Of a stretch of 27,156 nt of DNA, positions 745-25,205 are shown one piece after another (within the stretch, counting starts at the first letter, position 1; each line of letters starts with the position of its first letter). The DNA is from a virus. Both the position numbers and the translations under genes were made by a program. The DNA is taken from the IMG/VR virus record IMGVR_UViG_3300009061_000004, positions 1 through 27,156 of that record; one strand, 5' to 3'. The notes under the pieces were generated by a model. It had not been told where the DNA came from. It saw only the letters and a list, made by a program, of their open reading frames with translations, and did not search any database.

Positions 745-888
745 TTAATTTGAATCTGTAATGTTTGCCATAGTATTTGTTGGATCACCGGCACCAATTG
801 TATACGTAACGCCGCCGGCACCAACGGCGCCGATAGAGCTAGACTGTTCAAGAATACCTTTTCTGTGTAGGTATTCGCCACTAATCAT
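745..888 (-). CDS. Small 47-residue protein between two fibre genes
   Basis: An ORF of 47 codons starts with an ATG whose A is the last base of the upstream gene's TAA (TAATG overlap). The same arrangement occurs at four other junctions in this operon. The product starts MISGEYLHRKGIL, has a Gly/Ala-rich middle (GAVGAGGVTYTIGAGDPTNT) and ends TDSN. It has no predicted membrane segment and no cysteine. It fills almost all of the 200-base gap between the fibre genes. I do not recognise a family. A small fibre-associated or structural accessory protein is a guess from position only. The weak Shine-Dalgarno suggests it depends on translational coupling. Confidence 0.55.
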   Translation of the reverse strand: MISGEYLHRKGILEQSSSIGAVGAGGVTYTIGAGDPTNTMANITDSN

Positions 889-3068: not shown

Positions 3069-3076
3069 TATTTAGT
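3069..3076 (-). promoter_or_regulatory. Late-promoter-like box ACTAAATA upstream of the SPRY fibre gene
   Basis: The minus strand reads ACTAAATA, overlapping the stop codon of the giant gene, 21 bases before the fibre ATG. It is followed by the Shine-Dalgarno AAGGAAA. The placement fits a T4-type late promoter giving the fibre genes their own transcript. Confidence 0.45.
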
Positions 3077-9000: not shown

Positions 9001-12000
9001 GGTGTACCTTGATACTTGCGCTCACCCTTTTCAAAACGGTATGCGCTAACATCACTGATAAAAGTATTGGTCATGTATGTTGGTTTGCTGTATCCAACAT
9101 TGTATCCGATTGTTTGTCGTGTGAGACGCTCTAGAGCTTTGCTCTCTGCACTGATCCAGTCACGCTCAAGTTCACGCACACTGGTTTCGAAGTTGGTGAC
9201 AAGACCAGTATTGCGTACGATATATCCAGGCGCTTCAACACGACCATTCCAGTTACGTGTACGCTCGCCAAACAAACGTATACGATTCTGACCAATGCCT
9301 AGCTCAGGCTGGTAGATAGGATCATTGAATGTTGTAATGTTATCCAGGGTAATGATGTGTTCAAACTCAACTACTCTTACACCTAGTCCATAGATTCTAC
9401 GATCGCTGCTCTTGGGTGCAATCTCTGTGGTTTCTTCATTGCGCAGAACAAACAACTCATTGCGGCGTATTGCCTGATATGTTTCATCTAGTACGTTGAG
9501 TACGCCATCGTAATTGACGTCGATTGTTTGCACAACACCACGGTTCCCTTGATTGTAGATCAAGTTATCGCTCATGCCGTTTACAAAAAGGTCTTCAGTC
9601 TCGTCGCTTAGTGACCACACAATAGCAGCACGAGCATCAATTTCCCATTCAGTGAATGCATCAAAACCAATGCTCTCGTAATACTTGCCCAAGCCAAGCA
9701 AGAACTGGTAGAGCTCTTGTCGCTTGCGGAAGACGGTGCGATAAGGCACACGGCTGACTTCATTTCGCCAGTTAAGATGCTTGATGACTTCAACATCGCC
9801 AATTTGAACTGATGTTTGGTTACCGCCAGTGCTCGGACGTAGATAGTTAAAGAATCGACTGTCAAGGTTGTATCCATCAACCATGTATCCGCGTCCTTCA
9901 ATCTTTTGAATACGAACACCTGAATAGAACACAATGGTGTTAGGTGCATTGCGATCAATTACAATGTCATAGCTGCTTTCAGGAATACGAATCTGACCGC
10001 CATCTTGATGTTCTCCAGCCAACTCGAGGGACAAGATTCTTTTGTCAGTAAACCCTCCAACATGAATGCAGTATTTATATGCAAGATTGTCAAGACGGGT
10101 TGCTAGGTCATTTGTATAGCGTTCATCTACTCGATACTCTTCTGCACTGAGAGTGTTAAAGCCGAGGTGTGTTACAACATATTGGCGGTCTACCACATAC
10201 TCTAGTTCAACATCGTCATTAGCACCTACATTGGCAGTAAGTGTTACCTCTGGCTCTTTGAGGAAGCCTCTGCCTGGGTTGTCAACAGCCACGGCTGTCA
10301 CAGCGCCACCATTGAAGTATGCTGTCGCTGAGGCGTTTTCCTGACAACTCACATCTTGTTCAAAGTCAATGTCTAGACTTGTGTAACCAGTACCAGGCAA
10401 GATCACACGAATGTTACCAATCACACCATTTGTGATCAGCTGGTTATGGATTTCGTTATTGTCCTTGCGCATACAAGTATCAGGATTGACCCATTGCTCT
10501 TGTGTTACACCTGTGTTAACATTCCAACGATTCAATGACCAGAAGGTTTCAAATACACGGTATGGCTTGAGCTGTAGATATACTTCAGCAAGCGCAAATA
10601 GGTATTCACTGCTCTTGCGCCATACATTTTCAGTTTCGCTCCAATCACCAAACACGAAGTCACGGGCCGCGTCCACATTAGCAGGAAGTGCTACCACACC
10701 TGCTGTTACAGGCGGGTTAAGTGTTGCGTTGCCATCATCGCTGACCAAAGTCTCGTTATCCCAGTCATAGCTGCTACGGGCATAACGAATGTCTACATGA
10801 TCTGGTGTAGTGGCATTGCCCGTAATACCATATTTGAGTGCGTTGAGCAGGGCTGTGCGCAACGGTCCTGCACTCCATGAATAGGTTGCATCCCACCAAG
10901 TTGGCTTTACACCATGGCCTAGCATTTCCCAAGGATGAGTGTGAGGACGATCTGTGCCAAAGGTGTACACATAGAGGCTTCGCCAACTGCCCACGCCTGG
11001 AATGATACTTGAGTAATTCCAAGTGAATTCATCCAACCCGTTAAAGTCTATCACGTCGATTTCTTGGATGCCTTCACGTAGTGCATAACGATTGTACCAA
11101 TCGTCTAGGCGAACAGTCATATCACTAACATCATACGCAAACTCACTGACTGGGTTAGGGTAGAAGTCACGCATGTCTGCAGGTAATTTGCTGCCAACAA
11201 AATGCTTATCAACCAGGTTGTTGAACACCCTGAGCTCAAAGTCCCAAAGGGCGGCAGCTACCACGTCAAAGTCTGGACCATTCATGTCTGTGATGTTGCT
11301 GGTAGCCAATGTGTATCGTGATCCATCATGTCCGATCAACTCTCCGTCAACCACTTCAACCTGTGTAGGCTTGAAGAAACCAAGCTTGACCGCACTATAT
11401 GGAACATGGCTGAGGTGATTGTAATCGTACCAACGAATTGTTACAAGAGCACTGCCTTCAATTACTGATGACGTGACAACCTGTTCGTTATTGTATACAA
11501 CAGGCACACCACTGGCGACAACATCAGCTGGTTTCACTGCCGCTGGGCTGTCAAGAACAATATTGAGCCCGTCGATAGTGTAATCGACACCTTTCTGAAG
11601 TGGACGCTCTTGATATGCGTTGGTTCCAGCATCATACTCGCTCAACCAAACCTGAACGTGGTTTTGTGTGTCGCCATACTTGCTGATTACCTTGGGCAGA
11701 GCAAATGTATCTTCACCTGCTGTCGTTACTGAGTAGATCAAGCTGTTGAACTGTTTTGAGTATGCCATGTCGCTGTGTGCATACTTGAAATCCTCACCCT
11801 TGCCTAGGTTGATATCGTTCATTGCACGGTCAACTAGTTCACGGATACTATCCCATTTTTCATTTTCCCATAGCTGTTTTACCTTATTACGGAAAAAGCG
11901 CTTGAACTCTGAGTAGTCTCTTGCATTGGTCTTGAGTGCACGAATTGGGTTAATGCTCTCTTGATCAAGCAGGTACTGAATGTGTGATGTGCGATAAATC

Positions 12001-14552
12001 TGTTGACGAATAAGACCATCATGTGTATGTTGACGCAGAGTGCGGTGATAGTTGTTTACACCTTGTACATCACCACTAAAACCCGGTAGTGCATGTAACT
12101 GACGGCGGAAGTGGTTGATGAAATCGTCATACCCTGCTCCAGTGAAAGGACGGTTTTCACTATTGTAAAAATGCACTGGTGCAATGTCGTAAACGACATT
12201 TTCAAGATCACTGTCAGCAACATACATCAATTCAATGACGTCATTGTTTTCTAGATCTGCTGTAACTGTTACTGTTGAACCAACAACGTCATAATCATTG
12301 CCTTCGTCGAGGATCTGACCGTTGCGTTGTACTAGAATACGATTTTGATTCTCATCGCTGAGATGTATCTCGCCCTGGTTGGTTGGGTCTGCCTGATCAC
12401 GATATCGTACAACATTATATTCATAGGCTGAATCAATGCTCACTGTGGTCAAAACGTCACTCACCACTGTGACATTGATGTTAGCATCAGTGTTGCCATA
12501 AGGGTCGACAAACTCTAGCTTGTTCGCTGACTCTGAGATAAGGTCGTTGATGGTATATTCAGTATCATACTTCCAAATGAACTCTGGATTTTCATAACCA
12601 ATACTGACGAGGTCCATGTAGCTATGGCTATACCAACGGTATGTGCCGTCAACCAATGATACAGTGTACTCAGTTGGATATCCATAACCAGTTGTACCCA
12701 GTTCAAACTCGACTGGAGTTTCACCGTCTGCAACTGTGGTTTGGATGATAGGCACACGCTGAGCGCCGCGGATATTGCTCCAGCCGTTGTAATAGTCATC
12801 ACGTACCCAGTCACGCCAGAAGTAATATCCAGGAATCTCTTCTTTGCCCTCTACTGTGATTTTTTGATTGTAACGGTTATTGTTCAGTGTCCATTCAAAA
12901 CGGTAGTTTGAAAAACTTCCTTGATTGGTAAACGCTGGTGAGAATCCAAGCACACGATCAAATGCACCTGCTGAGTTAAACTCATATCCAAAAATCTTTT
13001 CACCTTCAAAGTCTGTATCTGTGTATGTCTCAAGATCAGCTTTTTCATCATCGTATAGCTTGAACAGTGGATGCTGACCACGATCACTTTTGGTTTGAGC
13101 AATGCTCCAAGTAGATCCGTTGAAACACCAGATGTCACCACGTGAATCGCCTTTGTCAATAATCACGTATTCATCTGCATTGTATGTGCTGAATGGAGTA
13201 AGTGTAATGTTTGTACCAACACCACCAACTTCAAACGAAGCATTAAAGATGCTTGAGTCAGAACCTAGATTGAAAGCACGGCTAAACGCTGCACTATACG
13301 GACCAGTGTCACTGGAACCAAGGTTGCCTTCAACAACAAGAACAGTATCACCATCTTGCAACGCATGTAGCGGGTCGACTAGATAATTTGCAGTTCCTGA
13401 CAGAAGTTCACTAACCTGATCCAGCGTAATAATGTAGTCAATTACTTCAACAAAATTCTTACAGGTGTTGTAGAGTTCCATGTTGGCATGGTACTCAAGA
13501 ATAGGTCGTTCAGCGCGGGTAACACGATTCAAATAAGCACGTGGGTCAAGTTCATTGTATTCAGCTGCAATACGAATTGCATCTGCTGAAAACCAACGAT
13601 TGCTTCTTGCCCATGGATTTTTATCACGAGCCCAACGTTCCATAACGATATAGCTCTTGTTGAGCGTTAGGTCATCACGAGTAAAAGTTGTTTCAGTCTG
13701 ATACTCTTCAAATGTACCTGGTCCATCCCATGGTGTCGTATCCCAATCAACGGTGTCCCAACCTTCTGGGGTTTCGATGTAATAAGGAGTAACGATAGGA
13801 AACACATCATTTCCATTTTCATCTACAATTTCGACCAATTCAATACCACCAGCACCACCTACATTTTCAACATAGTAGATAGCATCAGTATTATAATCAC
13901 CACTGGTGCTGCTGGCGTAAGGACCAATGAATTGCACACGCAATCCGTTAACAAACTCAACGGTGCGATAGTTGCCTAGCTCTGGTGTGGTGTATTGTGT
14001 TAGCTGCACGATATCATCAATATCAATTGGGTCACTGACAGTGGGTTCGATTACCACAAGAGGAATGTTCCCTTCCAACCAATAATAATTGTAATAGTTA
14101 ATCATCATGTCAGCATTGACAGGCACATCAAGGGTGTAACCTGGCTCGCTAAAACGACGGTCATGGTTTGCAAGGTCAGCCCCAAGACTTTCTAAACGAT
14201 CAAGCCAATTGATATAAGAAACAGTCTCAGCAGTATCACCCTGTTCTTTTCTTACAATACCAGGCTGGAATTGGTAGTTGAGACGAGTTGCATCGTCTTC
14301 TGGCTCGAACAAGATGTTCTCAGGATTATAATTGCGCCCTGCGAGACGACCCCAAAAAGTATCAATACTCTGTGTTGAGCCGCTGCTCAAGAGTTGATTG
14401 ACAGTTGAACCAAAGAATCGCTGGATTGATTCAGTGCGGTTGATATTGGGCAAGAACTCACTATAGTCCTGGAAGTCCTGAGTCAGACTGACTTCTGCGG
14501 TTTGTGTGTTGTTCTTTACTGGCTTTGGGTCTGCTCTGTAGCGATTAGCCAT
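3072..14552 (-). CDS. Giant virion structural protein, gp7 position in the baseplate operon
   Basis: 3826 residues, uninterrupted. The start ATG overlaps the end of gene 6 by 8 bases (ATGGCTAA), with AGGAC upstream. Segments seen in large T4-like structural proteins: residues 30-160 (FLPNINRTESIQRFF, INWLDRLESLGADLANH, INYYNYYW), a Trp-rich stretch near 265-330 (ARDKNPWARSNRWF), a YWDFADW segment near 3200, and PDWIFKTSYF followed by IEYIETVKPFRSKLRDAI near 3345-3385. A Gly-turn beta module also found in gp6 lies at about 1380-1440. Three related repeats lie at about 2320-2525. The C-terminal 3690-3826 is Thr/Asp-rich with TAD repeats and several cysteines. Its position directly after gp6 suggests a wedge protein in the place of gp7 (1032 residues in T4), probably fused to peripheral-baseplate domains. 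Homology to gp7 itself is not shown here. Confidence 0.7.
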   Translation of the reverse strand: MANRYRADPKPVKNNTQTAEVSLTQDFQDYSEFLPNINRTESIQRFFGSTVNQLLSSGSTQSIDTFWGRLAGRNYNPENILFEPEDDATRLNYQFQPGIVRKEQGDTAETVSYINWLDRLESLGADLANHDRRFSEPGYTLDVPVNADMMINYYNYYWLEGNIPLVVIEPTVSDPIDIDDIVQLTQYTTPELGNYRTVEFVNGLRVQFIGPYASSTSGDYNTDAIYYVENVGGAGGIELVEIVDENGNDVFPIVTPYYIETPEGWDTVDWDTTPWDGPGTFEEYQTETTFTRDDLTLNKSYIVMERWARDKNPWARSNRWFSADAIRIAAEYNELDPRAYLNRVTRAERPILEYHANMELYNTCKNFVEVIDYIITLDQVSELLSGTANYLVDPLHALQDGDTVLVVEGNLGSSDTGPYSAAFSRAFNLGSDSSIFNASFEVGGVGTNITLTPFSTYNADEYVIIDKGDSRGDIWCFNGSTWSIAQTKSDRGQHPLFKLYDDEKADLETYTDTDFEGEKIFGYEFNSAGAFDRVLGFSPAFTNQGSFSNYRFEWTLNNNRYNQKITVEGKEEIPGYYFWRDWVRDDYYNGWSNIRGAQRVPIIQTTVADGETPVEFELGTTGYGYPTEYTVSLVDGTYRWYSHSYMDLVSIGYENPEFIWKYDTEYTINDLISESANKLEFVDPYGNTDANINVTVVSDVLTTVSIDSAYEYNVVRYRDQADPTNQGEIHLSDENQNRILVQRNGQILDEGNDYDVVGSTVTVTADLENNDVIELMYVADSDLENVVYDIAPVHFYNSENRPFTGAGYDDFINHFRRQLHALPGFSGDVQGVNNYHRTLRQHTHDGLIRQQIYRTSHIQYLLDQESINPIRALKTNARDYSEFKRFFRNKVKQLWENEKWDSIRELVDRAMNDINLGKGEDFKYAHSDMAYSKQFNSLIYSVTTAGEDTFALPKVISKYGDTQNHVQVWLSEYDAGTNAYQERPLQKGVDYTIDGLNIVLDSPAAVKPADVVASGVPVVYNNEQVVTSSVIEGSALVTIRWYDYNHLSHVPYSAVKLGFFKPTQVEVVDGELIGHDGSRYTLATSNITDMNGPDFDVVAAALWDFELRVFNNLVDKHFVGSKLPADMRDFYPNPVSEFAYDVSDMTVRLDDWYNRYALREGIQEIDVIDFNGLDEFTWNYSSIIPGVGSWRSLYVYTFGTDRPHTHPWEMLGHGVKPTWWDATYSWSAGPLRTALLNALKYGITGNATTPDHVDIRYARSSYDWDNETLVSDDGNATLNPPVTAGVVALPANVDAARDFVFGDWSETENVWRKSSEYLFALAEVYLQLKPYRVFETFWSLNRWNVNTGVTQEQWVNPDTCMRKDNNEIHNQLITNGVIGNIRVILPGTGYTSLDIDFEQDVSCQENASATAYFNGGAVTAVAVDNPGRGFLKEPEVTLTANVGANDDVELEYVVDRQYVVTHLGFNTLSAEEYRVDERYTNDLATRLDNLAYKYCIHVGGFTDKRILSLELAGEHQDGGQIRIPESSYDIVIDRNAPNTIVFYSGVRIQKIEGRGYMVDGYNLDSRFFNYLRPSTGGNQTSVQIGDVEVIKHLNWRNEVSRVPYRTVFRKRQELYQFLLGLGKYYESIGFDAFTEWEIDARAAIVWSLSDETEDLFVNGMSDNLIYNQGNRGVVQTIDVNYDGVLNVLDETYQAIRRNELFVLRNEETTEIAPKSSDRRIYGLGVRVVEFEHIITLDNITTFNDPIYQPELGIGQNRIRLFGERTRNWNGRVEAPGYIVRNTGLVTNFETSVRELERDWISAESKALERLTRQTIGYNVGYSKPTYMTNTFISDVSAYRFEKGERKYQGTPEAIAAMARNKNIFGSEFAQEYYEEWMVRLGDYGDISEREPLQFQVDRNKIKGDPQHFRFNDNFVSDREDDLIIDISDGGAEAINGDYSSPFDTLPVLRLDENKITNLDQYQTFTRDAGLPLTTEVDNFVLSIDNIGEIYDPTADYASIPNWSKLAAYVQGDVVRYLGYVWELNIGSTGLNRVSSDLSFRGTQVFPTVPNGDTFIANDEVVTFVKRNEVITNNLINVDGAQPLPEVPSGSTLVLDGTNIDFIKTASEVQYLDINITGNISNPSIQNSASRQFSVFYADNSNDPLTEVVVNFNQLLPTNTMTQIWTDALNEAGASLVTSKVSARISALQDLQTDYVAANGVSAWESFIDQYYLVSPTPNLVLNPEFLGSEVSANIGASWEDAARDLIQLDLDLIEDIGGTHVETVATMVSGSLNNTVQFETARDAANNLLDLFVTPIDANRNLNNFIQYVESNGGVTIADNATIIVDEPNRYVVDTLATIKNKIDSALAAASAPSDISTSTVGNVLTVNRTNNVQGSRLGVSIDADLGFTAADTDVVSQGTNVVGGVDLDLSGIVTQINNAGVIGVSAVARNNVLRITSSNPTLTIGSGSANGPLGISAGVYQASQTIENRETDLNINDVVQQINEAEITDLTATQVEGVLVINFTGDRLEIGEGTANNDLGITPNVFDSRNETVSNVFDPADWNVVEDPLDLNVWVIDNLGSEPGASGLSSNRYNVYQALDFDLGILQICPGNENGDDALIKLDRLNGQGFEVHNLEVGEFVFIINSTCVPSVDGIHRVTRVDDQQNFYIDRYIEEEGFAGKVFPLRSMRFANTAEALTAMENPKYFRAAGDDIAVINDGLSLESTLADPEPFPRLTGGVRNGDYVYVDDYQEVVDNVADEGLGFGAVYQVFVNNNKVTLNFVRAENGKTDNSQIHNGVLHDNASGDTIVNFEVYDPLKGIIPGIADREIDIKSEFDAAYYNNTTDPDGEVNFANSWGQEQVGTVWWDLTTAIYLNYDQSTPEYRQKHWGQLFPGALIDVYEWTKSPVTPDQYSDVVSQDTTVDGQLLTGVPYAQTDQFGEPQYYWSEENEINPITGQVETYFYFWVRGKTTLPNVNRQFSVLQLEEIILDPARQQIDWLAATSENTLLVSSLDTTTGYKDLVMTVNYDANPSDYHQEYLLLAENDPSTIINEWLHISLRDSLAGYTQATGVYPWSDWEPIDTYLPGQIVRSGNGVFFRCHTESTGNNPDSDVDNDFWTQLEDVQLNPEGEIESLDYVEVEEPQNIPDLKLHPFVRQGLQVRPHQTWFEDINGGRRAVIEKINSQLIEINLLSSDIPWRTSFDREVSLGNGLVYDLRDYWDFADWSVDDYEYNRSVGNFFVEERSELAELSPTEGNIAHVEVNTDYDGRNRREVYRYTADEWQLVFKEKATIQFNDLLWDNELLQGGWDIADWDTTEWDRASSGLMVEIFDEFYNNIWIEERRPLYTDLWFAAVKYVLREQGEPDWIFKTSYFKVTVEDELEKIYNKFFTENVEDLIEYIETVKPFRSKLRDAIVRKIADDAADVDIDDAIEIRVQTNPLLNANYNFTGGFDIGYAGGEEAQALGQEIVDPFTRAFRLNVGKNGNNYSSKIINDRKVLLGLDIGPFDTVIPVLTIGDGDLPDPAVTGQTEAAWINGERFTYTGLGQLNTDGIGSGFSSGFDQGFSGVTLLTGVTRGTQGTFARGHSFADIIEGVGNDAELIENTTLSDWGNDLYPAWQPLGSGLLDTTNQTPNGLHMRGTDKWLEIINITQSNPAVVTVTDTSMLEDVMVVGIQNVDGMTQINDRAYTITVIDSTRFSLDGVDSTGFSEFTSTGCDPITADDTSITTDSTEVETDDTCVSTCDTVTADDDTITADSDTPTADTGCETNGIVDYGACFGTIEPWGNILWAQIIALGETADAIFQWQDELEELIEEYWAQNYPWPSGDSDEYTADSVWITADGDNALY
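6970..7580 (-). repeat. Three diverged beta-alpha-beta repeats within the giant protein
   Basis: At the protein level, three units of about 60 residues follow one another. Each has an amphipathic helix (IKNKIDSAL, IVTQINNAG, VVQQINEAE), two strands (LTVNRT, LRITSS, LVINFT) and an LG-x-S/T closing segment (LGVSID, LGISAGVY, LGITPNVF). The pattern resembles the IN motif repeats of flagellar hook-associated proteins, but that comparison is by eye. The DNA copies are too diverged to recombine. Confidence 0.6.
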
Positions 14553-17500
14553 TTCGTCGTCCTATGCTGTTTAGTGTTTCGACAATGTCGATATCTTGTA
14601 ATGTTACATCTGGTATAAAGAGTTCATTGCTTTCTGGTGTAATCTGGAATAAGTCTCCAAAATCGCTTTCAGTTGCGGTTGGCACTAGAACAATGCTACT
14701 GATCACACCAGGTAGCTCTTGGTGGATATAAGCGCTGAGCTCAGTGAAGTAGAATGTTTCACCAAAGTCCCAGTTCTCAATGTTGAAGAATTCTCTGATT
14801 GCAGTAAGAACTCGTGATTTGATTTCGTTATTGGTCAATGTAGTGCCAGAAACTTTCACGATCTTGAACTTACCTTGCAATTCTATGTCAGCCAATTCAC
14901 CAAATAGCGTTTTGTAATCAGCAGCACGATATACGATTGAGTCGCTTACCATCTTCTTGCTATCAAGTCTGGTAAACTGTTTCTCAAGTTCAATCTCTGT
15001 AGGTGCTTCTGGTCTGTTCGCTTCAATACGATCATCAGCCAACCACTGTCGATATTTAGTGTCGTAATTCTGGTTAAGAACGTAGATATCAATAATATTG
15101 CTAAGGCTAGGATCAATACGATACTCGCTGGTTGAGATACGTCGCCAGATAAAGCTCAGGTTGCCCCGTCCATTAGCTTCGTCACCCTGATCCACTCTTA
15201 CTGTATACTCAAAACCATCTTCAATTACTGGACCAATCTCGATGTTGTCAGTTCCTACCAGTTCTTTGAATGCTAGTGGGTTGTCAGGATAGTTGTCATT
15301 GTCAATGTCAGCCAGTGTCACAATTACCTTACGGTCGTCAGTATAACCGTCGGATTCTGTATAATAACGATGCACAAAGAATGGCATATCAACTCCCAAT
15401 GGGTAAAAGTTACCGTTAGGCTGTGTGTTGATTTTTGATACAATAATACGATCTCTGTCAGGCTTATTGGTTTCAACATTGAATCGACGGCGTCCGTTCT
15501 GATTATGGAAGCGAATCTTTTCGTCGCTGCCAAACACAATACGAGTACGGCGTGATGTAAACGTCCAACTGTCTGCTGAATAGTCAGCACGTATTAGCCA
15601 GCTGTTATCTAGATTGTTATTGGTTCGATCACCAGCAAACTGCAAACTGAAATTGTCGGGTTGATTCTGACTTGCTGGACCAAGGTCTCCTGGTCGTATC
15701 AGGAACCAACGATTCAAGTTAGCATCATAACGCAGACCAAAGCTGCTAAGATTTTGAATTTCTGTGATGATATCTTGTTGAAGTTCTACATCAAATGTAG
15801 TACGGAACGCTGGAAATACTCTTGACACTCGCGCAGTGTTTGGAATGCTCTTGTTGAGTACAATTGCACCTTTGCCACGTGATGTCAAACCTGTTGGGAT
15901 CCCGTTGTCATCAAGAACGCCTTGCCCGTCACTTACTACGTCAACAACGCGCGCCCAGGTCTTAGCAGGGCTTACAGCATTTACTGCCACCTCTGCACCT
16001 TCACCTCCGCCACCAACAAACGCAACAGTAACCGGGTTGAGATATCCTTGCCCAGGATTGGTGAGAACAACCTGAACAACCTGTCCATTTTGAATGTTTG
16101 CAACAGCGGTAGCACCTGTGCCGGTGCCGCGAATTTCAACATCTGGTGCGCTGGTGTATCCTGTACCAGGATTGGTGATGCGCAATTCTTCTCCCAAGAA
16201 CCCAAGAGCACCTTGAATATATGGCGTTTCCACAAATTCAACAATGGATCCTTCACGAACTATGTTAAGATCACTCAGTGTTGCTGTTCCGACCTTTTCA
16301 ATCGCACCATCGCCGCGTGTGAAATATCCACTTGATCCACGGTATCCAGTTGTAATTTGTTGCCATTCAAAGTTTTCTTCACCAGTTTCATCTTGGAATG
16401 GAATTCTAGTTACATCATATTTGTCATAGAACAAGTTAATGATCTCTGGGTTAGATGGCAAATCATCAAGGAAGCGATTGTAGATTTGTTCTGGTGTCTG
16501 ATCGCTTGGCAAATCAAGCTTGGAGCGATATGTGATACCTTGTCTGTAAATGTAGCCATCATCAGCAATCATATCAGCGTTCTGGTATGTTGCTGTTGGA
16601 TCACGCGGCTTGATATAACGACTATGTCCAGTATAGGTTCGGTTAATTGCCTTGATCTTTTGTACATTCTCACTTACAGTAAGTGGGTATGCTGAGTAGT
16701 CGTCAGCTGTGACCATGCGATCCTGTGCAGCAAAGACACGCCCAGCGTTGTTCTTGATGCTGGTTACACTCTCTTGTGCCGCTGCATTATTGACCGGCTC
16801 TTGCAATTCACAGTTGAATGTTGCATTGTAGGTGTTGCCGTCTGATGCCAGATAACGAAAGCTGAATGATACCAGGCTAAGATCTTCTGGTGCAAGTGTA
16901 TAAGTTTGATTAACACCTGTGCGATACCAGACACGCAAGGTGCCACGTGGAATTTCACTGAATACACCATCACCAAATTGGATATTAACATTGTCATTAT
17001 CCACAGTTTTGACTGTGTATAGCTTGCGCACATCTTGGCGCACACTGTTAAAGATCATGTTGGCACCGAAGCTGGAATCAACACGTTGCCATGTGTCAAG
17101 AGGCTCGCCATTCTGATCAATCTCTTGTACCCAAACGTCGTCATTGTTGACGTTCTGTGCATTGAGGTCTAGAATGAGGTTACTGACTGCACGGTCGGCA
17201 TTGACATCATTGAATTGTAAGTTACCCTGCTTGAAGCCTACGAAGAATCCAGTGTTGTTACTGCTAAGACCTTGTCCATCATTTTTGTACACAATGTCGA
17301 ATTTTCCAAATGGGTTTGGTTCGCTTTCACGCAAAGAATTTGAAGCATCATCAATTTCTAGTCCATGCACTTCAAATTGTTGACGGGCACCATTAACCTG
17401 ACCATTGAAACTGAATACGACGTCGCGCTCTTCTGTAATATTGGTTGAGTAAATGTCATGCTTTACATTACCAATACGAGTGCTATCGGTTGGTCGTCCA

Positions 17501-17994
17501 AATTTGTTGTTAACGTTGAACAATTCGTTCATAATCAATAGATAGTTTTGATATGACGTTTCAAAATCAATTGTGTTGTTTTTGAGGTTAGTACCATCAA
17601 TGCTGAAAACATCTTGCGTTGTTTTAACACTGATAACTTTTATCTCACCACGGGCTGGTCGATGGCGTGTTGGTGTGTAGCCAATGAAATCAGCAATACG
17701 TAGAACGCTGGCACGTCGTTCTGCGGTGCTGAGGAAGTTTTCACGTCCAGCCTGGTCGATTCGGAATGCAAGGCTATGCGCGAGAAACGCGAGGGTTTCG
17801 ATCAGCGCAACGAATTCGCTTGACTGGATCCAGTCGTTGAAGTTCTCTGGATATTGCTGTCTGATATAATCAGTTAGTGCACCACGAATCGTGTCGTAGT
17901 CGTATGCTTGGAAGTTTGCTTGCTTAAAGCTATCATATACCAATCGGTAATCTTCAGCTGCAAACAGGTTACGTTGACGTAATGACTGGGCCAT
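14545..17994 (-). CDS. 6: Baseplate wedge protein gp6
   Basis: 1149 residues. The N-terminal 1-130 carries the gp6 signature: DYIRQQYPENFNDWIQSSEF, then LIETLAFLAHSLAFRID, then ENFLSTAERRASVLRIADFIGY. In T4, gp6 forms the continuous ring of the inner baseplate and changes shape when the sheath contracts. T4 gp6 is 660 residues, so this one is much longer. Part of the excess is a Gly-rich beta insertion at about 600-670 with two GTGYT/GQGY turns. Residues about 1040-1120 (KFKIVKVSGTTLTNNEIKSRVL, ELPGVISSIVLVP) resemble the dimerising C-terminal part of J/gp6-type proteins. It starts three bases after the gp25 stop and overlaps the giant gene by 8 bases. This order (25-6-large wedge gene) is typical of T4-like operons. 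Confidence 0.9.
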   Translation of the reverse strand: MAQSLRQRNLFAAEDYRLVYDSFKQANFQAYDYDTIRGALTDYIRQQYPENFNDWIQSSEFVALIETLAFLAHSLAFRIDQAGRENFLSTAERRASVLRIADFIGYTPTRHRPARGEIKVISVKTTQDVFSIDGTNLKNNTIDFETSYQNYLLIMNELFNVNNKFGRPTDSTRIGNVKHDIYSTNITEERDVVFSFNGQVNGARQQFEVHGLEIDDASNSLRESEPNPFGKFDIVYKNDGQGLSSNNTGFFVGFKQGNLQFNDVNADRAVSNLILDLNAQNVNNDDVWVQEIDQNGEPLDTWQRVDSSFGANMIFNSVRQDVRKLYTVKTVDNDNVNIQFGDGVFSEIPRGTLRVWYRTGVNQTYTLAPEDLSLVSFSFRYLASDGNTYNATFNCELQEPVNNAAAQESVTSIKNNAGRVFAAQDRMVTADDYSAYPLTVSENVQKIKAINRTYTGHSRYIKPRDPTATYQNADMIADDGYIYRQGITYRSKLDLPSDQTPEQIYNRFLDDLPSNPEIINLFYDKYDVTRIPFQDETGEENFEWQQITTGYRGSSGYFTRGDGAIEKVGTATLSDLNIVREGSIVEFVETPYIQGALGFLGEELRITNPGTGYTSAPDVEIRGTGTGATAVANIQNGQVVQVVLTNPGQGYLNPVTVAFVGGGGEGAEVAVNAVSPAKTWARVVDVVSDGQGVLDDNGIPTGLTSRGKGAIVLNKSIPNTARVSRVFPAFRTTFDVELQQDIITEIQNLSSFGLRYDANLNRWFLIRPGDLGPASQNQPDNFSLQFAGDRTNNNLDNSWLIRADYSADSWTFTSRRTRIVFGSDEKIRFHNQNGRRRFNVETNKPDRDRIIVSKINTQPNGNFYPLGVDMPFFVHRYYTESDGYTDDRKVIVTLADIDNDNYPDNPLAFKELVGTDNIEIGPVIEDGFEYTVRVDQGDEANGRGNLSFIWRRISTSEYRIDPSLSNIIDIYVLNQNYDTKYRQWLADDRIEANRPEAPTEIELEKQFTRLDSKKMVSDSIVYRAADYKTLFGELADIELQGKFKIVKVSGTTLTNNEIKSRVLTAIREFFNIENWDFGETFYFTELSAYIHQELPGVISSIVLVPTATESDFGDLFQITPESNELFIPDVTLQDIDIVETLNSIGRRNG

Positions 17995-17997
17995 GTG

Positions 17998-18363
17998 TTA
18001 AATCTCTTCTGTCTGGGTGTACTTCAAAAACAGTTCTTCTTCGCTTGTGTCAGGCAGATACTCCAATTGTACTGCAATAAGAATAGCCTGCTCAGCGGTA
18101 GTCAAACGATAGTCGATTAGCTTCCAACGTGGATCAAGATTAACGATGCGTCGTACATCTTCATCTGCTAGGTCGATCACACGCTGATCAAAGGGTTCAA
18201 ACACCAATAGTGGAAGAATGCTGCCGAACTCTGGTTCGCCCAGACGCTCTCCGCGACGAGTGTAAAAATTGTTCAATAGGTCAACTTTAGCTAGCTCTTT
18301 GTCCTCAAGGACTTGAGTGCCTGTGCGTCTACCAATTGAAGAGAATCCAATGAATTTTGCCAT
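17998..18363 (-). CDS. 25: Baseplate wedge protein gp25
   Basis: 121 residues, close to the 132 of T4 gp25. It matches the GpW/gp25 family: DLLNNFYTRRGERLGEPEFG (29-48) followed by ILPLLVFEPFD and, later, an amphipathic segment ending YLPDTSEEELFL. In T4 and in type VI secretion (TssE), this small protein sits at the core of the wedge and contacts gp6 and gp53, helping nucleate the sheath. It lies directly before gene 6 with a three-base gap. I see no Shine-Dalgarno ahead of its ATG. Instead a CATAAATA box sits five bases upstream, so translation may start on a very short or absent leader. Confidence 0.92.
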   Translation of the reverse strand: MAKFIGFSSIGRRTGTQVLEDKELAKVDLLNNFYTRRGERLGEPEFGSILPLLVFEPFDQRVIDLADEDVRRIVNLDPRWKLIDYRLTTAEQAILIAVQLEYLPDTSEEELFLKYTQTEEI

Positions 18364-18395: not shown

Positions 18396-19115
18396 TTACG
18401 TTCTAGCAAATCTTACCACTCTACGCTGTCTAAGCTGGCTCATACCAGGCAAAAATGTACCGTTTAGTTGACGGTAATATGCAAACTCTGCCTGTCTGCG
18501 TTCAAATTCAGTACGCAAACCGCTGATGTAACGTGTTCTCAGAGTCTGAATACCCTGAATACGTTGTTGGCGTCTGGTCTTGCGCACTGAGTAACTGCCT
18601 AGACGCAATGCAGCGGCTTCTCTCTTGCGCAAGAGAGGATTAACATTACCTCGCATAAGGATGTCTGCGACCAGCAACCAGTTACCATTACGAACAGCAT
18701 CAGCCACGTCATACGTGCCTTCGGCGGCCTGTAATGTACGCCAGGTTCCTGTATCAAGATAGAGGCTCATAAGCGCATCAAATACGCTATTTGGAATTTT
18801 ATCAATTGGAATTTGTGCTTTGACAATTCGCTGTTGATTTCGCACATAGCCTAACCATTCAGCATACGCTTGTTCTTCAGTATATCCTTGCTCATCATCA
18901 GGATCACCTATGCCATAACCAATCTCAAATTCTCCGTCTTCTGTTTCATAACGAACAGGACTAAATGTTTTAAATCCAATTATCACATCAACCATTTCTT
19001 GTGTGATTGTAATGACATTGACTGGTAGTAGAAATTTTGTATAGAAATCGTTACTCACAGTGAATACTTCCCACTGTGTTCTAAATTGTGGCGGTACAAG
19101 TTTTAATAATGCCAT
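18396..19115 (-). CDS. Lysozyme-fold (GH24-like) baseplate protein with replaced catalytic residues
   Basis: 239 residues. Residues 40-170 follow the phage lysozyme (GH24) layout: an IIGFKTFSPVRY segment, DGEFEIGYGIG turn, GYTEEQAYAEW helix, FDALMSLYLDTGTW (the usual FDALvsF-N-G region) and LLRKREAAALRLG (the usual RR-x-x-E-x-x-L). Aligned on Y56, G61, G66 and G68, the T4 lysozyme triad positions E11, D20 and T26 correspond here to K49, T58 and E64, at identical spacing. Hydrolysis by the normal mechanism therefore looks lost. The N-terminal 1-38 and an Arg-rich C-terminal tail (175-239) are extra. It is TAATG-coupled to the hydrolase gene upstream and precedes gp25, so I infer a structural role in hub or wedge, or binding of peptidoglycan without cutting. 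I know no established name. Confidence 0.65.
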   Translation of the reverse strand: MALLKLVPPQFRTQWEVFTVSNDFYTKFLLPVNVITITQEMVDVIIGFKTFSPVRYETEDGEFEIGYGIGDPDDEQGYTEEQAYAEWLGYVRNQQRIVKAQIPIDKIPNSVFDALMSLYLDTGTWRTLQAAEGTYDVADAVRNGNWLLVADILMRGNVNPLLRKREAAALRLGSYSVRKTRRQQRIQGIQTLRTRYISGLRTEFERRQAEFAYYRQLNGTFLPGMSQLRQRRVVRFART

Positions 19116-21076
19116 TAGTTGCCTCCTGCTCTCAATCTGGCTAATGCATCATTTCGTTCATTTCCGAATCGGTTAACGACCGCACTTCTTACGCTAGAGG
19201 TACTGCTACCAAAATATTTGGTTCCATTGCCGGCTGCTCGCTCAGCATATACACCCCTGATAAATGCTTCATTTGATGGATTAGGTCCTGTTCGTGCTAG
19301 CACTCTGCCTACAATGGTAGCTGCCCCTCCGGCGCCGTGTTGTACAGCCGTTGACCAGACAACATCTTGTACAACCCTTGGTCTGCTTGAAACATTGAAC
19401 CCAGTGTTTGCTGCAATTCTTCTCGCTGCTGGCTCATAGTGAGTTGATGCGATGAATGCGTGTTGTGTTGCTGCATTTGATGGATTGCTCATTGTTCTTT
19501 GCCAGGCTGCCTCGAACTGTGGTGTACGGGCGCGGGCCGCGGATTCGCCGCCAGCTGCCTGAAGTTCATTGTATAGTGCGGGATTCTCAGTTCGTAAAAA
19601 GTCCATATAGTTACCAAAAGTACCTGTGCGAGTAGCAATCTGATACTCGCCATAACTTGGGCCACCAGTTCGGTCTTCACCTACAATAGTTGGATCACCT
19701 CTTGATTCATACTGGGAGCTCAAAGCACCTAGTTCAGGATCTGCATCACTAACATCGCCAACTGCACTACCTAACTCATCACCACCTAGGCTTGATTCAA
19801 GAGCACCAGAATCAAAAAATGCTCCTGCTTCGTGTTGGCTCGCAAAGGCTTCGGCCCATTCTGGCACAGAATCTCGTTTCCAGTTATCACCCCAAACTGT
19901 ACGCGGACCATCTCTAATATCCCAATGCAAGCTTCCGCTGCTATAAAATCCCATTCCTCGTATACCCAAGGTACTAGCTGCTTCGGATAAATCAATACGC
20001 TCAGTATTGGTGAGTCCTTGACCAGAAATATCGAATGCTTTACCTTGCAAGTGTTGTGACCCACGAGCACCACGGCCTGCGGTTTCACGGAAACCGTCAA
20101 TAATAGTAAGTGGAATACCAACTTGGCGAGCCGCTTCGTTTGTGATGTCAACCAGTCTCTGATCAACACGCATGTCAACTCCCGGCAAGATGGTAAGGTA
20201 ATCACCACCTGACGCTAGCGCTTGTCGCTCAGCACGTTCACCAGTTTGCTCGTCGATTGTTCTAATGTCACTCGGTGCTCCGTAGTAATATGAGTTACTA
20301 TCCTGTACTGGACCGCCCGCTCCCCCACCAGATGGACGTGATTGGCTTCCACCACCACCGCCAAGGCCGCCGAATCCACCCCCGCCGCCAAACAATCCAC
20401 CAAGTCCCCCGCTGGTTCCACCACCGCCAAAAAGACTACTGAGCCCACCAAACAATCCGCCAAGGCCACCACCTCCGCCACCACCACTTGGTCTGCGGTT
20501 TGTGTTGCCACCACGCCATGGAGAACGGCCTGGTTGATTACTATTTCCAGGAGGAGGTGTAACGGGCGGTTGTGCTGGGGGCTCCAAAGCATCTATTATC
20601 AGATTCACTATGAGCAATCCATAGGTCGTTTCATTGACAAATATACTTGAAGTAGATCCACGGTCCTCAACACCATGAGATGGAATTAGTAGAGCATCAA
20701 GATTACCAAATGTTTCTAAATAGATTGCAGCAAAGCTAGATAGATTATTGCGTATTACTCTTGTAGCTTCCTCATCATCATTAAAAAATGGTTCAGGATG
20801 TATGGTATTTTCTACACCCCTCCCGCCGCTTTCAGTCAATGTTTTCACACCAAGGCTTGGATATCCACTTATACCTTTTGATGCCATGAACGCCACTACA
20901 CCCTGATTGAATTTTGTCGCAGCCGCACGAACCTCAGAGCTAGCATCGTCAGGGATAATGACTTCTGTACCTCGGACGCCGCCTTCACCCACTGCTGGAT
21001 TAAAGCCCACAGCGATGTTCAGATTGTCCTCTGGACTGTTAACATCTCTTGTACCAGTATCGACTCTAAGACTCAT
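19115..21076 (-). CDS. Multidomain tail-associated peptidoglycan hydrolase (amidase-like, M15 peptidase, lysozyme-like)
   Basis: 653 residues in three parts. Residues 70-165 (RGVENTIHPEPFF, LLIPSHGVEDRGS, NETTYGLLIVNLI) recall N-acetylmuramoyl-L-alanine amidases of phages, but this is weak. Residues 170-260 are a Pro/Gly linker. Residues 290-400 are a clear M15_3-type zinc peptidase: GFRETAGRGARGSQHLQGKAFDI with H342, G345, A347, D349, and SLHWDIRDG with H384 as third ligand. Residues 450-600 are lysozyme-like (LSSQYESRGDP with candidate E457, then GGPSYGEYQI). No signal peptide is visible, as expected for a virion enzyme. The start lies nine bases after the gp5 stop with AAGGAAC upstream. 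It probably digests the cell wall during tail penetration. Release of progeny is a less likely role given its place between hub and wedge genes. Confidence 0.75.
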   Translation of the reverse strand: MSLRVDTGTRDVNSPEDNLNIAVGFNPAVGEGGVRGTEVIIPDDASSEVRAAATKFNQGVVAFMASKGISGYPSLGVKTLTESGGRGVENTIHPEPFFNDDEEATRVIRNNLSSFAAIYLETFGNLDALLIPSHGVEDRGSTSSIFVNETTYGLLIVNLIIDALEPPAQPPVTPPPGNSNQPGRSPWRGGNTNRRPSGGGGGGGLGGLFGGLSSLFGGGGTSGGLGGLFGGGGGFGGLGGGGGSQSRPSGGGAGGPVQDSNSYYYGAPSDIRTIDEQTGERAERQALASGGDYLTILPGVDMRVDQRLVDITNEAARQVGIPLTIIDGFRETAGRGARGSQHLQGKAFDISGQGLTNTERIDLSEAASTLGIRGMGFYSSGSLHWDIRDGPRTVWGDNWKRDSVPEWAEAFASQHEAGAFFDSGALESSLGGDELGSAVGDVSDADPELGALSSQYESRGDPTIVGEDRTGGPSYGEYQIATRTGTFGNYMDFLRTENPALYNELQAAGGESAARARTPQFEAAWQRTMSNPSNAATQHAFIASTHYEPAARRIAANTGFNVSSRPRVVQDVVWSTAVQHGAGGAATIVGRVLARTGPNPSNEAFIRGVYAERAAGNGTKYFGSSTSSVRSAVVNRFGNERNDALARLRAGGN

Positions 21077-21085
21077 ATCTGTTCC

Positions 21086-22861
21086 TTAATAACTCCACTC
21101 GTAACCCATTCCGCCTCGGAGTGATGGTCCACCATTTCCTCCCCACAGGTCTGCATGAACACCGCCACCTCTCATGACCATGCCAAATGAGCCATAGTTA
21201 TTGGAGCGCCAATGATCACGTAGTGGTGCCAGTTGACTGCGACTGCGCAGCCGATTGCCACTTGGATCATAAATGTAGATGTCAGCAGCATATCCATTGT
21301 CATGTCGAATAGTGCCTGTTCTCCTATTACTAGTACCAATAGGTGGTTGACCGCCAGAATAAATTTCGGCACGATATCCTGGCCCATATACATCAGAAAT
21401 TGATGTCTGCAATCGATCCATGAGCAAAGGTTGAATTGGTTGATTTCGAGTTGCGCCTTGGTTATTATATGTGACTTCAGCTCTACCAGAACCAGGCGAA
21501 CCGCCTGCATCACTGGTCGGTGGTGACAACTCTGGACGTGGAGCCGGAGAGGTTGATGGCGGGCGTTCTCCAGTAGCAGGTTCTCGACTGCGACCGCCAC
21601 CGCCACCACCACCGCCGCCAGCGCCGCCCCCGCCACCACCACCTCCGGTACCGCCACCGTCTGGTATCTGTTGTGCAACGTCAAGGTGTCCGGCCCATGG
21701 TTCCCCCTCAGGTACACGCTCAGCAATGCTTTCTGTGACGCCGCTGTTACCTGCCAATGCACCAGGTGTTGCTACTTCTGCTGTTTCTGCTTCAGGTCCA
21801 TTAAGATCAATACGTCCTGCTGTGACACGAAGGTTACCTGACATATTGAGATTACCGTTTGATTCACTAGTAAGGTTCATATTACCTACCGATAGAGCGT
21901 CAAAACCACCAAGTGATTCCATGCCGATATTTGTACCTCGCATATTGATATTTCCAATGGCATGTAGGTTGAAATCAGCACCAGCATGTAGATTGAAGCT
22001 GCCAGGTGTATGCATGTTGATTGACCCTGCGGCAAAAATATCAACATCACCGTTACGATTCATTTCCATCCACACACTACCATCACGATTGTTAATGTAT
22101 GTCATGCCATTTGTATCATCCATGAGAATCTGTGCGCCGCCTGCACTGCGCAAACGTATACCCAATTCACTGCCGTCTTCACCATTACCGTCATCAAGTG
22201 TAAGAGCATGTCCTGCTGGTGTTGTCACACCAGCTACACGAGGACTTGCATCGCGGCGGGGGCTTGAGTTTGATGGTCCACGGATAATGTCATTTTCTAG
22301 CCCCTGTCTGCGATAAGCTTCTGCTTGTGGGTGTTCGTTTGGAAGATCGTTAGGTTGTCCTGAACTAGGTTGTTCATATCTTGCGGTTACATCGCCGTCA
22401 GCAGTTGGTCCTCTTGCGCCGGCTCCAGCAAGACCTTCATTGCGACCTGGATCAAGAATAACTCCCAAGCAGATACCATTGTGAGTGTCACCGCCAAATG
22501 CTACTACAACCTCGTTGTTGATATCAGGTGGAATACCTGAAAATCCGTATGAGGTTTCAGCGCCTGGATTAGAACTCGTACCACTACCCATTGGCAACAT
22601 GGTGCGGCACCACATAGAACCCAGATATTTTTCTGGGTCAAGCGTTTGTGGATCTGATGATTCGCCTATAGGAAACGTTCCGTAAAACTTCATAATCTGT
22701 ACTTTGATACGTCCCTCAAGACTAGGATCTTCAACATCAACCACAATACCACGATAGATGCCTGCCGGAATCTTAAGTCCTTTTGACATTTCATTCTGGT
22801 TATATTGTGTCCTAGGGCTACGACTAAATGAGTCGGACGTCTTATATCTTTTCTTATCCAT
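21086..22861 (-). CDS. 5: Baseplate spike gp5-like protein with C-terminal M15-like peptidase
   Basis: 591 residues. Residues 31-140 are an OB-fold of the gp5/VgrG type (GIYRGIVVDVEDPSLEGRIKV, NNEVVVAF). Residues 215-355 are the repetitive triple-stranded beta-helix (GDVDIFAAGSINMHTPGSFN, INMRG, MNLTS). A run of about 20 glycines at 402-423 and a Pro-rich stretch lead to residues 475-591. There HDNGYAADIY supplies H520 and D527 in the HxxGxAxD zinc motif, and GGVHADLW supplies H569. T4 gp5 instead carries a lysozyme domain between the OB-fold and the helix. Here that place holds only about 75 residues of linker. The gene is TAATG-coupled to the hub gene with AAGGAGG upstream. Placement as the central spike is well supported. 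The peptidase specificity is inferred. Confidence 0.85.
   Translation of the reverse strand: MDKKRYKTSDSFSRSPRTQYNQNEMSKGLKIPAGIYRGIVVDVEDPSLEGRIKVQIMKFYGTFPIGESSDPQTLDPEKYLGSMWCRTMLPMGSGTSSNPGAETSYGFSGIPPDINNEVVVAFGGDTHNGICLGVILDPGRNEGLAGAGARGPTADGDVTARYEQPSSGQPNDLPNEHPQAEAYRRQGLENDIIRGPSNSSPRRDASPRVAGVTTPAGHALTLDDGNGEDGSELGIRLRSAGGAQILMDDTNGMTYINNRDGSVWMEMNRNGDVDIFAAGSINMHTPGSFNLHAGADFNLHAIGNINMRGTNIGMESLGGFDALSVGNMNLTSESNGNLNMSGNLRVTAGRIDLNGPEAETAEVATPGALAGNSGVTESIAERVPEGEPWAGHLDVAQQIPDGGGTGGGGGGGGAGGGGGGGGGRSREPATGERPPSTSPAPRPELSPPTSDAGGSPGSGRAEVTYNNQGATRNQPIQPLLMDRLQTSISDVYGPGYRAEIYSGGQPPIGTSNRRTGTIRHDNGYAADIYIYDPSGNRLRSRSQLAPLRDHWRSNNYGSFGMVMRGGGVHADLWGGNGGPSLRGGMGYEWSY
21590..21660. 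repeat. Poly-glycine codon tract in the spike gene
   Basis: A CCG/CCA/CCC-rich tract on the plus strand encodes a run of glycines broken once by alanine on the minus strand. It is a flexible linker between the beta-helix and the peptidase. Its length is likely to vary between relatives by slippage. Confidence 0.8.
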
Positions 22862-24912
22862 TAGAATGGACCTCCTTGACTAAAAATACCCAGAGCTCTT
22901 GATGCGTCTTCTTGCTCTTGAGCAAGGTTACGCCCACTATTTCCAAATCCAGCGCCGGTAACACCGCCGCCGGGCCCGGATCCACCTTTAAGTGTATCGA
23001 TAGCGGTATTGGTGTTGGTTGCATTGTCCAGATGCGCTGTCAAATATTGAGTGAATTGACCATTCTGAAACTTGTTAATTACACTTGTGACAGTATATAG
23101 CGCAGTGAGCTGATAATCTGGGCTTGGCACACGTTGTCCGGCTGCATCTTCATCTGCGGTAGGGAAATGTACATTGAGGAAAAAACTATTAGATCCTAAC
23201 TCGTAATTAGCTAACTCGCCGCCACCACCTCCGCCAGAATTATACAGGCTGTTAGGCGCGCCAAACCAATAAGGATCACCTCGTATTCCAATTTCAATAT
23301 CGAGTAGGTCAGCTGCACTTTCAAGATTCATTTTGACAGCACCAAATTTAAGTACGCCACTTCGTCGGTCGTTGTCACTGGTAAGAATGTCACCATCGTC
23401 GACAACGTCATGAACAAACCTAACTGGATGATTGACTTTGCCTGGTGAAAACTCAAATTGATCACTCAAAAAACTCTGATAATCCCCAAGAGCATTATTG
23501 AAATCAATACCAGCCTGACCTAATACTCCACGTAATTGGTTGAAAATACCGCCACCAACATCCTGGCCTTGAACAGCGTTGAAGTTTTGTGCTGCCGATG
23601 CATATTGCTGTCTAGCCTGAGACAAAGCTTCTAAACGTGCGATTTGTTCTGGAACGTCAGTTGCAAACTCTGGATTTTGTGTATTAGGTTCACCAAAATA
23701 CCCGTCACCATAAGGAGTTGCGTAATAGTATGCGTTATTGAACTGCATATCAAACTCAAGGACTTCCGTGTTTTGGCCTGTGAATAGATAATCATAACGC
23801 TTGCGCAACAATCCAAGTCCAAACAAATTTTGGACACGTCTTGATTGAACTCCGGGATTGGTAATGCTTGATTGATATGCTAGATTATCTATCAATTCAT
23901 CAGGAACCATATACGGTTGAATTACATATTTAACAATTTTTTGATATTCGTTTCTTAATGGATCAAATTGCCCAAATTCAACATTGGCTAAAACTTTATG
24001 AAACACTGGAAATGAATCCAATTGTTTTTGTGTGGCTTCATATGTTTGATTACGAAACGTGCCGCCATCATGTGCAATGATTTTCTTGTACTCTTTGGTT
24101 AGCTGCAAAACCTGCCCGATAATAGCAGTAAAGTTTGAACCGTTATTAATACTGACCTGTAGTTTGGGATTGGCTCCTGGCAGGCCAATGAAGTTTGCAC
24201 CATCAGCATCAAAAGGATCTTCAAGTATCTCAAATCCCCAATCACGCCAACTTTCAGCGCCATTGCCAAATTCAAATGAATATTGGTCTTGCAATGCACC
24301 CATATTAGGGTTAGCAACCCAGGCGTTGAGAAGTGATTCTTGTAGTTTACGCTGAAACTCGTCAATAAACTCACCTACAGTTCTCGCTTCAACAACAATT
24401 TGATCCCTGATAACCGCAGTGATATAGTTATATCCAAGTGTGCTGCTCTCAACTGCTTCAATGTTATAGACAGTTCCCATCTCTGTTACATTGAACTCAA
24501 ATCTAGTAAACATAACTGGAAAATAAAAGACCTGAGGATGCTTGCGAGCACTACCATCTGGCATACGTCCATTGAATTCAATAGCAATGATATATCCAGC
24601 ATTTGTATGATTTTGAATACCAAGTTGAGAAGCGGCTTGTTGAATTTTACTAAGCAGTGTAACACCGTTTGGCTCGTTAACTGTCATTTGGAACATGCTA
24701 CCAAATGCTTCGCGAACCTGACCATGTCCTACTGTAAATACTTGCTCTACACTGGTAAGATTATATCTTGCATCAACTACATTGTTAGCAATCGGGATGC
24801 CGCTGCTAATCGCCCCATCAAGCTGTGATAGGTTATTTGGATGCACCATATACAATGCAATATTATAGGTATAGGTGTCGTACTCATTGAGTGGATTTGG
24901 TGAATAACTCAT
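22861..24912 (-). CDS. Baseplate hub protein, gp27-position candidate
   Basis: 683 residues. The N-terminal 1-190 is beta-rich with conserved-looking FNVTEMGTVYNIEAV and AVIRDQIVVEARTVGEFIDEF. Residues about 375-400 contain LEFDMQFNNAYYY. Residues about 520-550 contain VKMNLESAADLLDIEIGIRGDPYWFG, a segment typical of hub proteins of contractile-tail phages (the GDP-Y-W turn). A Gly run follows at about 553-567 and a Gly-rich tail at the end. It lies immediately before the spike gene, the position of the hub that holds gp5 (gp27 in T4). It is TAATG-coupled on both sides. I infer that it forms the trimeric hub ring at the base of the tail tube. Identity with gp27 is by position and pattern, not by an alignment. 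Confidence 0.65.
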   Translation of the reverse strand: MSYSPNPLNEYDTYTYNIALYMVHPNNLSQLDGAISSGIPIANNVVDARYNLTSVEQVFTVGHGQVREAFGSMFQMTVNEPNGVTLLSKIQQAASQLGIQNHTNAGYIIAIEFNGRMPDGSARKHPQVFYFPVMFTRFEFNVTEMGTVYNIEAVESSTLGYNYITAVIRDQIVVEARTVGEFIDEFQRKLQESLLNAWVANPNMGALQDQYSFEFGNGAESWRDWGFEILEDPFDADGANFIGLPGANPKLQVSINNGSNFTAIIGQVLQLTKEYKKIIAHDGGTFRNQTYEATQKQLDSFPVFHKVLANVEFGQFDPLRNEYQKIVKYVIQPYMVPDELIDNLAYQSSITNPGVQSRRVQNLFGLGLLRKRYDYLFTGQNTEVLEFDMQFNNAYYYATPYGDGYFGEPNTQNPEFATDVPEQIARLEALSQARQQYASAAQNFNAVQGQDVGGGIFNQLRGVLGQAGIDFNNALGDYQSFLSDQFEFSPGKVNHPVRFVHDVVDDGDILTSDNDRRSGVLKFGAVKMNLESAADLLDIEIGIRGDPYWFGAPNSLYNSGGGGGGELANYELGSNSFFLNVHFPTADEDAAGQRVPSPDYQLTALYTVTSVINKFQNGQFTQYLTAHLDNATNTNTAIDTLKGGSGPGGGVTGAGFGNSGRNLAQEQEDASRALGIFSQGGPF

Positions 24913-25205
24913 TAAATTCCTGCTACGAATGATCTAGTTGGTACCAAAATAACTTTGTTCAATGTAAAGTCATTGATTGGATCAACAATTAGGTTCTTAT
25001 TATACAATGGAAATACCCACCAGAAATCACTTTCTCCATACAATTCATATGCAAGCATATCTGGACGGTTAACATATTTCTGAGTAATTGTAAATTCTTC
25101 TGTTTGTGTAAAATCAGGCACTAATGGGGGCTCATATAGAGCAGCATATCCATTACGAATTGATGTTTGACGCAAATGACTTGTTCTTTTATATGAGTTA
25201 GCCAT
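24912..25205 (-). CDS. 53: Short gp53-like baseplate wedge protein
   Basis: 97 residues. The core RPDMLAYELYGESDFWWVF (47-65) followed by N69 and VDPINDF matches the T4 gp53 segment RPEELANAIYGNPQLYWVL. The C-terminus LNKVILVPTRSF is like the closing strand of LysM-type baseplate proteins. T4 gp53 has 196 residues, so this is a half-size form keeping mainly the core. In T4, gp53 clamps neighbouring wedges together around gp6/gp25. It is TAATG-coupled to both neighbours. The alternative is a LysM-like tail protein of the P2 gpX type, which has a similar Y-G-x-x-x-x-WW motif. Confidence 0.7.
   Translation of the reverse strand: MANSYKRTSHLRQTSIRNGYAALYEPPLVPDFTQTEEFTITQKYVNRPDMLAYELYGESDFWWVFPLYNKNLIVDPINDFTLNKVILVPTRSFVAGI

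Follow-up and report, generated by a model that had tools for sequence, protein, structure and literature searches.

Genomic context of the gene

The window, by which we mean the whole 27,156-nucleotide stretch of viral DNA analysed here, carries at 18396-19115 a real ORF that codes for a 239-aa protein related to GH24 lysozymes. This gene lies within a cluster of hub and wedge genes, as expected of a T4-type myophage baseplate protein, and the order of transcription is virion protein gene, gp53-like gene, gp27-like hub gene (so called by position), gp5-like spike gene, 653-aa gene, pseudo-lysozyme gene, gp25 and gp6. The features are as follows:

24912-25205, minus strand: gp53-like baseplate wedge gene (Pfam PF11246 and phrog_7145)
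22861-24912, minus strand: virion structural protein gene (phrog_11190, E=7.7e-44), a gp27-like hub by position only
21086-22861, minus strand: gp5-like baseplate hub/spike gene (phrog_13211, E=9.5e-20; OB-domain match slightly below the cut-off)
19115-21076, minus strand: 653-aa gene with an M15 peptidase domain and a VgrG3-like C-terminal domain, a putative muramidase (Pfam, 25.9 and 104.4 bits, both above the cut-off)
19113-19127, minus strand: Shine-Dalgarno sequence AGGAGG (19122-19127) and TAATG overlap with the stop codon of the upstream gene
18396-19115, minus strand: GH24 (pseudo-lysozyme) gene, 239 aa, product predicted to be inactive (Pfam, PHROGs, hhalign, AlphaFold2, Foldseek)
18597-19010, minus strand: GH24-like domain, approximately residues 36-173 (hhalign, Foldseek)
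18969-18971, minus strand: codon of K49, at the catalytic Glu position (hhalign and column counts)
18942-18944, minus strand: codon of T58, at the catalytic Asp/Cys position (hhalign and column counts)
18924-18926, minus strand: codon of E64, at the catalytic Thr position (hhalign and column counts)
18399-18575, minus strand: conserved helical C-terminal part, residues 181-239 (QAEFxYYRQ...FLPGMSxLRxRR), outside the GH24 match
17998-18363, minus strand: gp25-like baseplate wedge gene (phrog_43, E=2.2e-10)
14545-17994, minus strand: gp6-like baseplate wedge gene (phrog_10646, E=7.7e-284)

Around residues 603-693 of the gp6-like protein (14545-17994, minus strand) there is a segment with matches to other PHROGs of virion proteins, which suggests that a repeat domain has been inserted. 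The ORFs at 3-686 and 888-3047 (minus strand), which lie downstream of the wedge genes, contain repeated stretches (VPVEDDGTEIVATPTALNFTGAGVTVTD). In the 3826-aa ORF that follows gp6 (3072-14552, minus strand), residues 3633-3694 match Pfam E1_FCCH.

The position of the gene is constant. The order hub, gp5, pseudo-lysozyme, gp25 and gp6 recurs in the listed loci, the pseudo-lysozyme being the gene after gp5 wherever the contig reaches upstream. When 74 loci were scanned with gp6 as the anchor, a family match of more than 100 bits was present upstream of gp25/gp6 in 61, and a partial match at the contig end in 3; 10 loci gave no match, 8 of them having less than 700 bases upstream. L167 (871 bases upstream) contains gp25 and then just short ORFs on the opposite strand, and in L229 (1301 bases upstream) gp25 is joined by two ORFs, one HNH-like and one partial and unrelated, and so the gene may be missing or displaced in some members. 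HNH-endonuclease-like ORFs, perhaps homing endonucleases, are inserted directly upstream of gp25 at L069:3310-3852 and L229:274-861.

Homology to GH24 lysozymes

On the evidence of sequence comparison, GH24 homology is weak from the window protein (P0001) alone but firm for the family. P0001 matches Pfam Phage_lysozyme with E=5.9e-4 and 20.6 bits, under the cut-off of 22.3, and the phrog_7 endolysins with E=2e-4. The family profile (20 aligned rows) matches 80 intact GH24 endolysins in hhalign with P=96.6% and E=5.9e-10, and the profiles of three family subsets match each other with P of 99.9-100% and the intact GH24s with P of 93-97% each. One member, L231, clears the Pfam cut-off unaided (Phage_lysozyme, 36.9 bits), and in tblastn it finds partial matches to ordinary phage lysozymes (best E=8e-5).

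The viral contig scans that gave these relatives returned 27, 34 and 39 mostly overlapping loci, mostly contig fragments, and the family counts below are counts of rows, some of which are near-copies. Among 50,697 phage records, tblastn retrieved no full-length member, and no cultured member was found; P0001 (limit 1e-3), P0002, L234 and L180 had no match there, and L069 had one chance-level hit. The genome contigs scanned yielded no relative.

Loss of the catalytic triad

The first-pass annotation had described a GH24-like domain in which the catalytic triad is replaced at conserved spacing while the signatures of the fold are kept, and both points were confirmed. When the family is aligned by hhalign to the 80 intact GH24s, no gap occurs between about residue 36 and the GYG turn, and K49, T58 and E64 fall exactly on the columns of the catalytic Glu, Cys/Asp and Thr, which in the intact set read E in 80/80, C in 78 and D in 2, and T in 80/80; the GYG motifs align, and FDAL..TG and LLRKREA lie on GH24 motifs. 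A HMMER alignment to PDB 8app, with a short deletion, had put the catalytic Glu close to S52; this placement was rejected, the hhalign alignments to 3 and to 80 intact GH24s being ungapped there and pointing to K49.

The letters K, T and E are not themselves conserved among the homologues. In the 20 rows, position 49 reads K in 10, R, Y and I in 2 each, and N, L, V and F once each, with no Glu; position 58 reads N in 10, D in 4, A in 2, T and S once each, with 2 gaps; and position 64 reads E in 9, T in 4, V and K in 2 each, and R, D and N once each. These columns rank with the more variable ones in the family (87th, 69th and 85th entropy percentile, respectively). What is conserved is the loss of the triad: the full set that marks an active GH24 lysozyme, catalytic Glu with Asp/Cys and Thr, was found in none of the 64 family rows available after the gp6-anchored scan, and the only row with Glu at column 49 is L231, which has Asp at 58 and Lys at 64. 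In contrast, I65, G66, Y67, G68, D113 and G123 are invariant (20/20), while the Asn at column 121, present in 80/80 intact GH24s, is kept in 1/20 family rows. Thus, the positions of the fold have been held and those of the active site have not. Columns past about residue 125 look shifted in the MAFFT alignment of the family with the GH24s and were left out of the residue argument.

A muramidase still active through other residues is, on these counts, highly improbable. The domain does contain two conserved acids, E80 and D113 (both 20/20), and L231 retains Glu and Asp, with Thr changed to Lys. However, Asp is found at the position of D113 in 73/80 intact GH24s as well, and Glu at that of E80 in just 25/80, so that neither has the look of a catalytic acid that has moved, and no common acid in the loop substitutes for position 49. 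E57 and E59, which had been named as possible substitutes, are conserved in only 1/20 and 5/20 rows, so that the alignment does not support an escape through them.

Predicted structure, phylogeny and selection

The lysozyme fold is predicted to be retained. AlphaFold2 run on 69 rows (20 family and 49 intact GH24) gave a model with pLDDT 97.2 and pTM 0.90, although the intact GH24s in that alignment may have biased it in the direction of GH24; with 14 family rows only, the result was poor (pLDDT 58) and was set aside. The best Foldseek matches of the predicted structure in the PDB are GH24 endolysins, with a TM score on the target of up to 0.72, and SpmX (6h9d) and T4 lysozyme appear among the lower matches.

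In the tree, the family is a single clade apart from the intact GH24s (support 100/100), and it gives no firm branching order for the three clades inside the family. One of these (28 tree rows, proteins of about 300 aa) is without the hairpin that bears the Asp and Thr positions. The slot genes of L234, L186, L219 and L213, from this 300-aa clade, are extended at the C-terminal end by a stretch of beta-rich appearance (VEKLTVEVNG...FDFTV...TITK...GDIIRTTIKI). The gene is under strong purifying selection, as seen in the L020-L026 pair, with dN of 0.097 against dS of 2.27; many other pairs are saturated.

These data bear on the idea that the dead lysozyme acts as a clamp, binding glycan strands and anchoring the baseplate to the wall with no cutting. 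Wall binding of this kind is credible because T4 lysozyme inactivated by E11A retains its binding to peptidoglycan (PMC7060211). In the same enzyme, T26E leads to a covalent adduct (PMC7060211), and E64 occupies the column equivalent to Thr26, where Glu is found in 9/20 rows. We nevertheless consider it unlikely: (i) the near-complete loss of the column-121 Asn (1/20 against 80/80) and the absence of the active-site hairpin from one clade argue against wall binding for the whole family, and (ii) T26E cleaves before trapping and needs the catalytic Glu, and Glu49 and Glu64 occur together in 0/20 rows.

Enzymes encoded nearby

Active enzymes next door had been proposed to serve instead of the pseudo-lysozyme, and this holds for the window insofar as the 653-aa gene adjoins it there. 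Among the listed loci, though, this M15 and VgrG3-like gene between gp5 and the pseudo-lysozyme is present only in the window and in the matching contig L001. The gp5 proteins of L013, L014, L020, L027, L174, L178 and L068 carry a Pfam M15 domain above the cut-off, and that of L044 one slightly under it (22.5 bits, cut-off 23.2); in addition, Phage_lysozyme2 is present on the gp5 of L044 and L068. Pfam recognised no hydrolase domain in the gp5 of L069, L231, L236 and L234, and neither M15 nor GH24 in the window's gp5-like ORF (21086-22861). Since the triad has been lost family-wide, including in the loci whose gp5 has no recognised hydrolase, the 653-aa gene of the window cannot be the general cause of the loss.

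The window's gp5-like protein (21086-22861, minus strand) has an M15-like look in its C-terminal part (HDNGYAADIYIYD ... GVHADLW), at a level below a significant Pfam match.

A lysozyme probably reused in the baseplate

We regard it as fairly probable that the muramidase catalysis of a GH24 lysozyme homologue disappeared early in the history of this phage group, and that the protein was then retained in the central baseplate without an enzymatic function; its most likely role there would be that of a connector at the place where the gp5 spike meets the gp25/gp6 wedge. Where other domains are present, wall cutting would be left to them: in most of the window's clade to the M15 of gp5, and in the window to the 653-aa gene too. 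The connector is the best and most economical reading of the role of the pseudo-lysozyme. The analysis itself establishes the relationship to GH24, the predicted fold, the absence of the triad from every row, the constant gene position and the purifying selection; from these we infer that the protein would lack activity, be present in the virion and have hub and wedge proteins as its partners. The first-pass annotation had likewise suggested exaptation into a structural or wall-binding baseplate part; the retained fold, family-wide triad loss, fixed place in the cluster and purifying selection uphold the exaptation, and its choice of roles and the presence of the protein in virions go further than these data do.

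A wider reading is that of a clade-wide exaptation, from tail lysozyme to obligatory non-enzymatic baseplate connector, with its stages still visible in L231 (Glu and Asp kept), in the window's clade (triad substituted) and in the 300-aa clade (hairpin deleted). This is tentative, and we are somewhat more doubtful than convinced of it. Because the active site is lost by degrees in a family whose gene has a fixed place in the baseplate cluster, one can test in what order the events occurred and what new role the former enzyme took on; the case also warns that a lysozyme label given to a tail gene by fold or profile may be mistaken.

Comparison with known systems

In T4-type phages, the tail-lysozyme domain is borne by gp5 itself. 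The T4 gp5 tail lysozyme and the C-terminal GH24 of 121Q gp5 (P0004; Phage_lysozyme, 44.5 bits) resemble the family in being GH24 domains of the T4-type baseplate hub region. However, the T4 domain is active and shares one polypeptide with the OB-fold and the spike, whereas here, judging by its residues, the same fold would belong to an inactivated protein, encoded by a separate gene.

Other phages have separate genes in the same slot. GH24 proteins of 162-163 aa are encoded before gp25 in 121Q (586), CBB (CBB_239), RaK2 (ORF073), XaC1 (XaC1_315), Salmonella PHA46, Erwinia SNUABM_19 and Xanthomonas XbC2; these Rak2-like proteins are of the T4-lysozyme type, with E, D and T intact in 7/7 aligned. 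They share the gp5-gp25 slot with the family, but the hhalign match is weak (P=29%; 23-34% over the comparisons), and thus their likeness to it rests on position and not on established orthology. In Stenotrophomonas phage RAS14 the slot is taken by an M23 peptidase gene (L077:6088-6921), and PA5oct has no same-strand gene there before gp25.

Slot genes need not be virion parts, since CBB_239 is unconfirmed as a virion structural protein while its neighbours CBB_238 and CBB_240 are confirmed (PMC5259590). This observation, together with the start/stop overlap and the fixed place between hub and wedge genes, fits a product that is required for building the hub or wedge and is absent from the finished virion. 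Mass spectrometry can, however, miss low-copy baseplate proteins, as the RaK2 authors remarked of gp078 and others (PMC3622015), and the protein matched no known chaperone family; we judge an assembly factor of this kind decidedly unlikely and continue to favour the connector.

Within the open-access literature, a scope outside which most subscription journals fall, we found no paper on an inactive baseplate lysozyme. The family has a common fold with the GH24 phage lysozymes and SAR-type endolysins (PF00959, phrog_7), as well as the GYG, FDAL..G and LxRRRxA motifs and the profile match given above (P=96.6%). In contrast to those enzymes, it is without the full Glu, Asp/Cys and Thr set, has the extra conserved C-terminal helical part, and is encoded in the baseplate cluster and not in a lysis cassette. 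An enzyme-derived virion protein has a parallel in the TTV1 nucleocapsid protein TP1, which is described as derived from a Cas4 nuclease (PMC4625639), although fold, virus and host are all different. The nearest precedent for a GH24 domain as a scaffold is SpmX of Caulobacter and Asticcacaulis, whose lysozyme-like domain is reused for protein binding with no activity detected (PMC5347347). SpmX is a bacterial polarity protein and, unlike the family, keeps the catalytic Glu, so that residues alone do not settle function.
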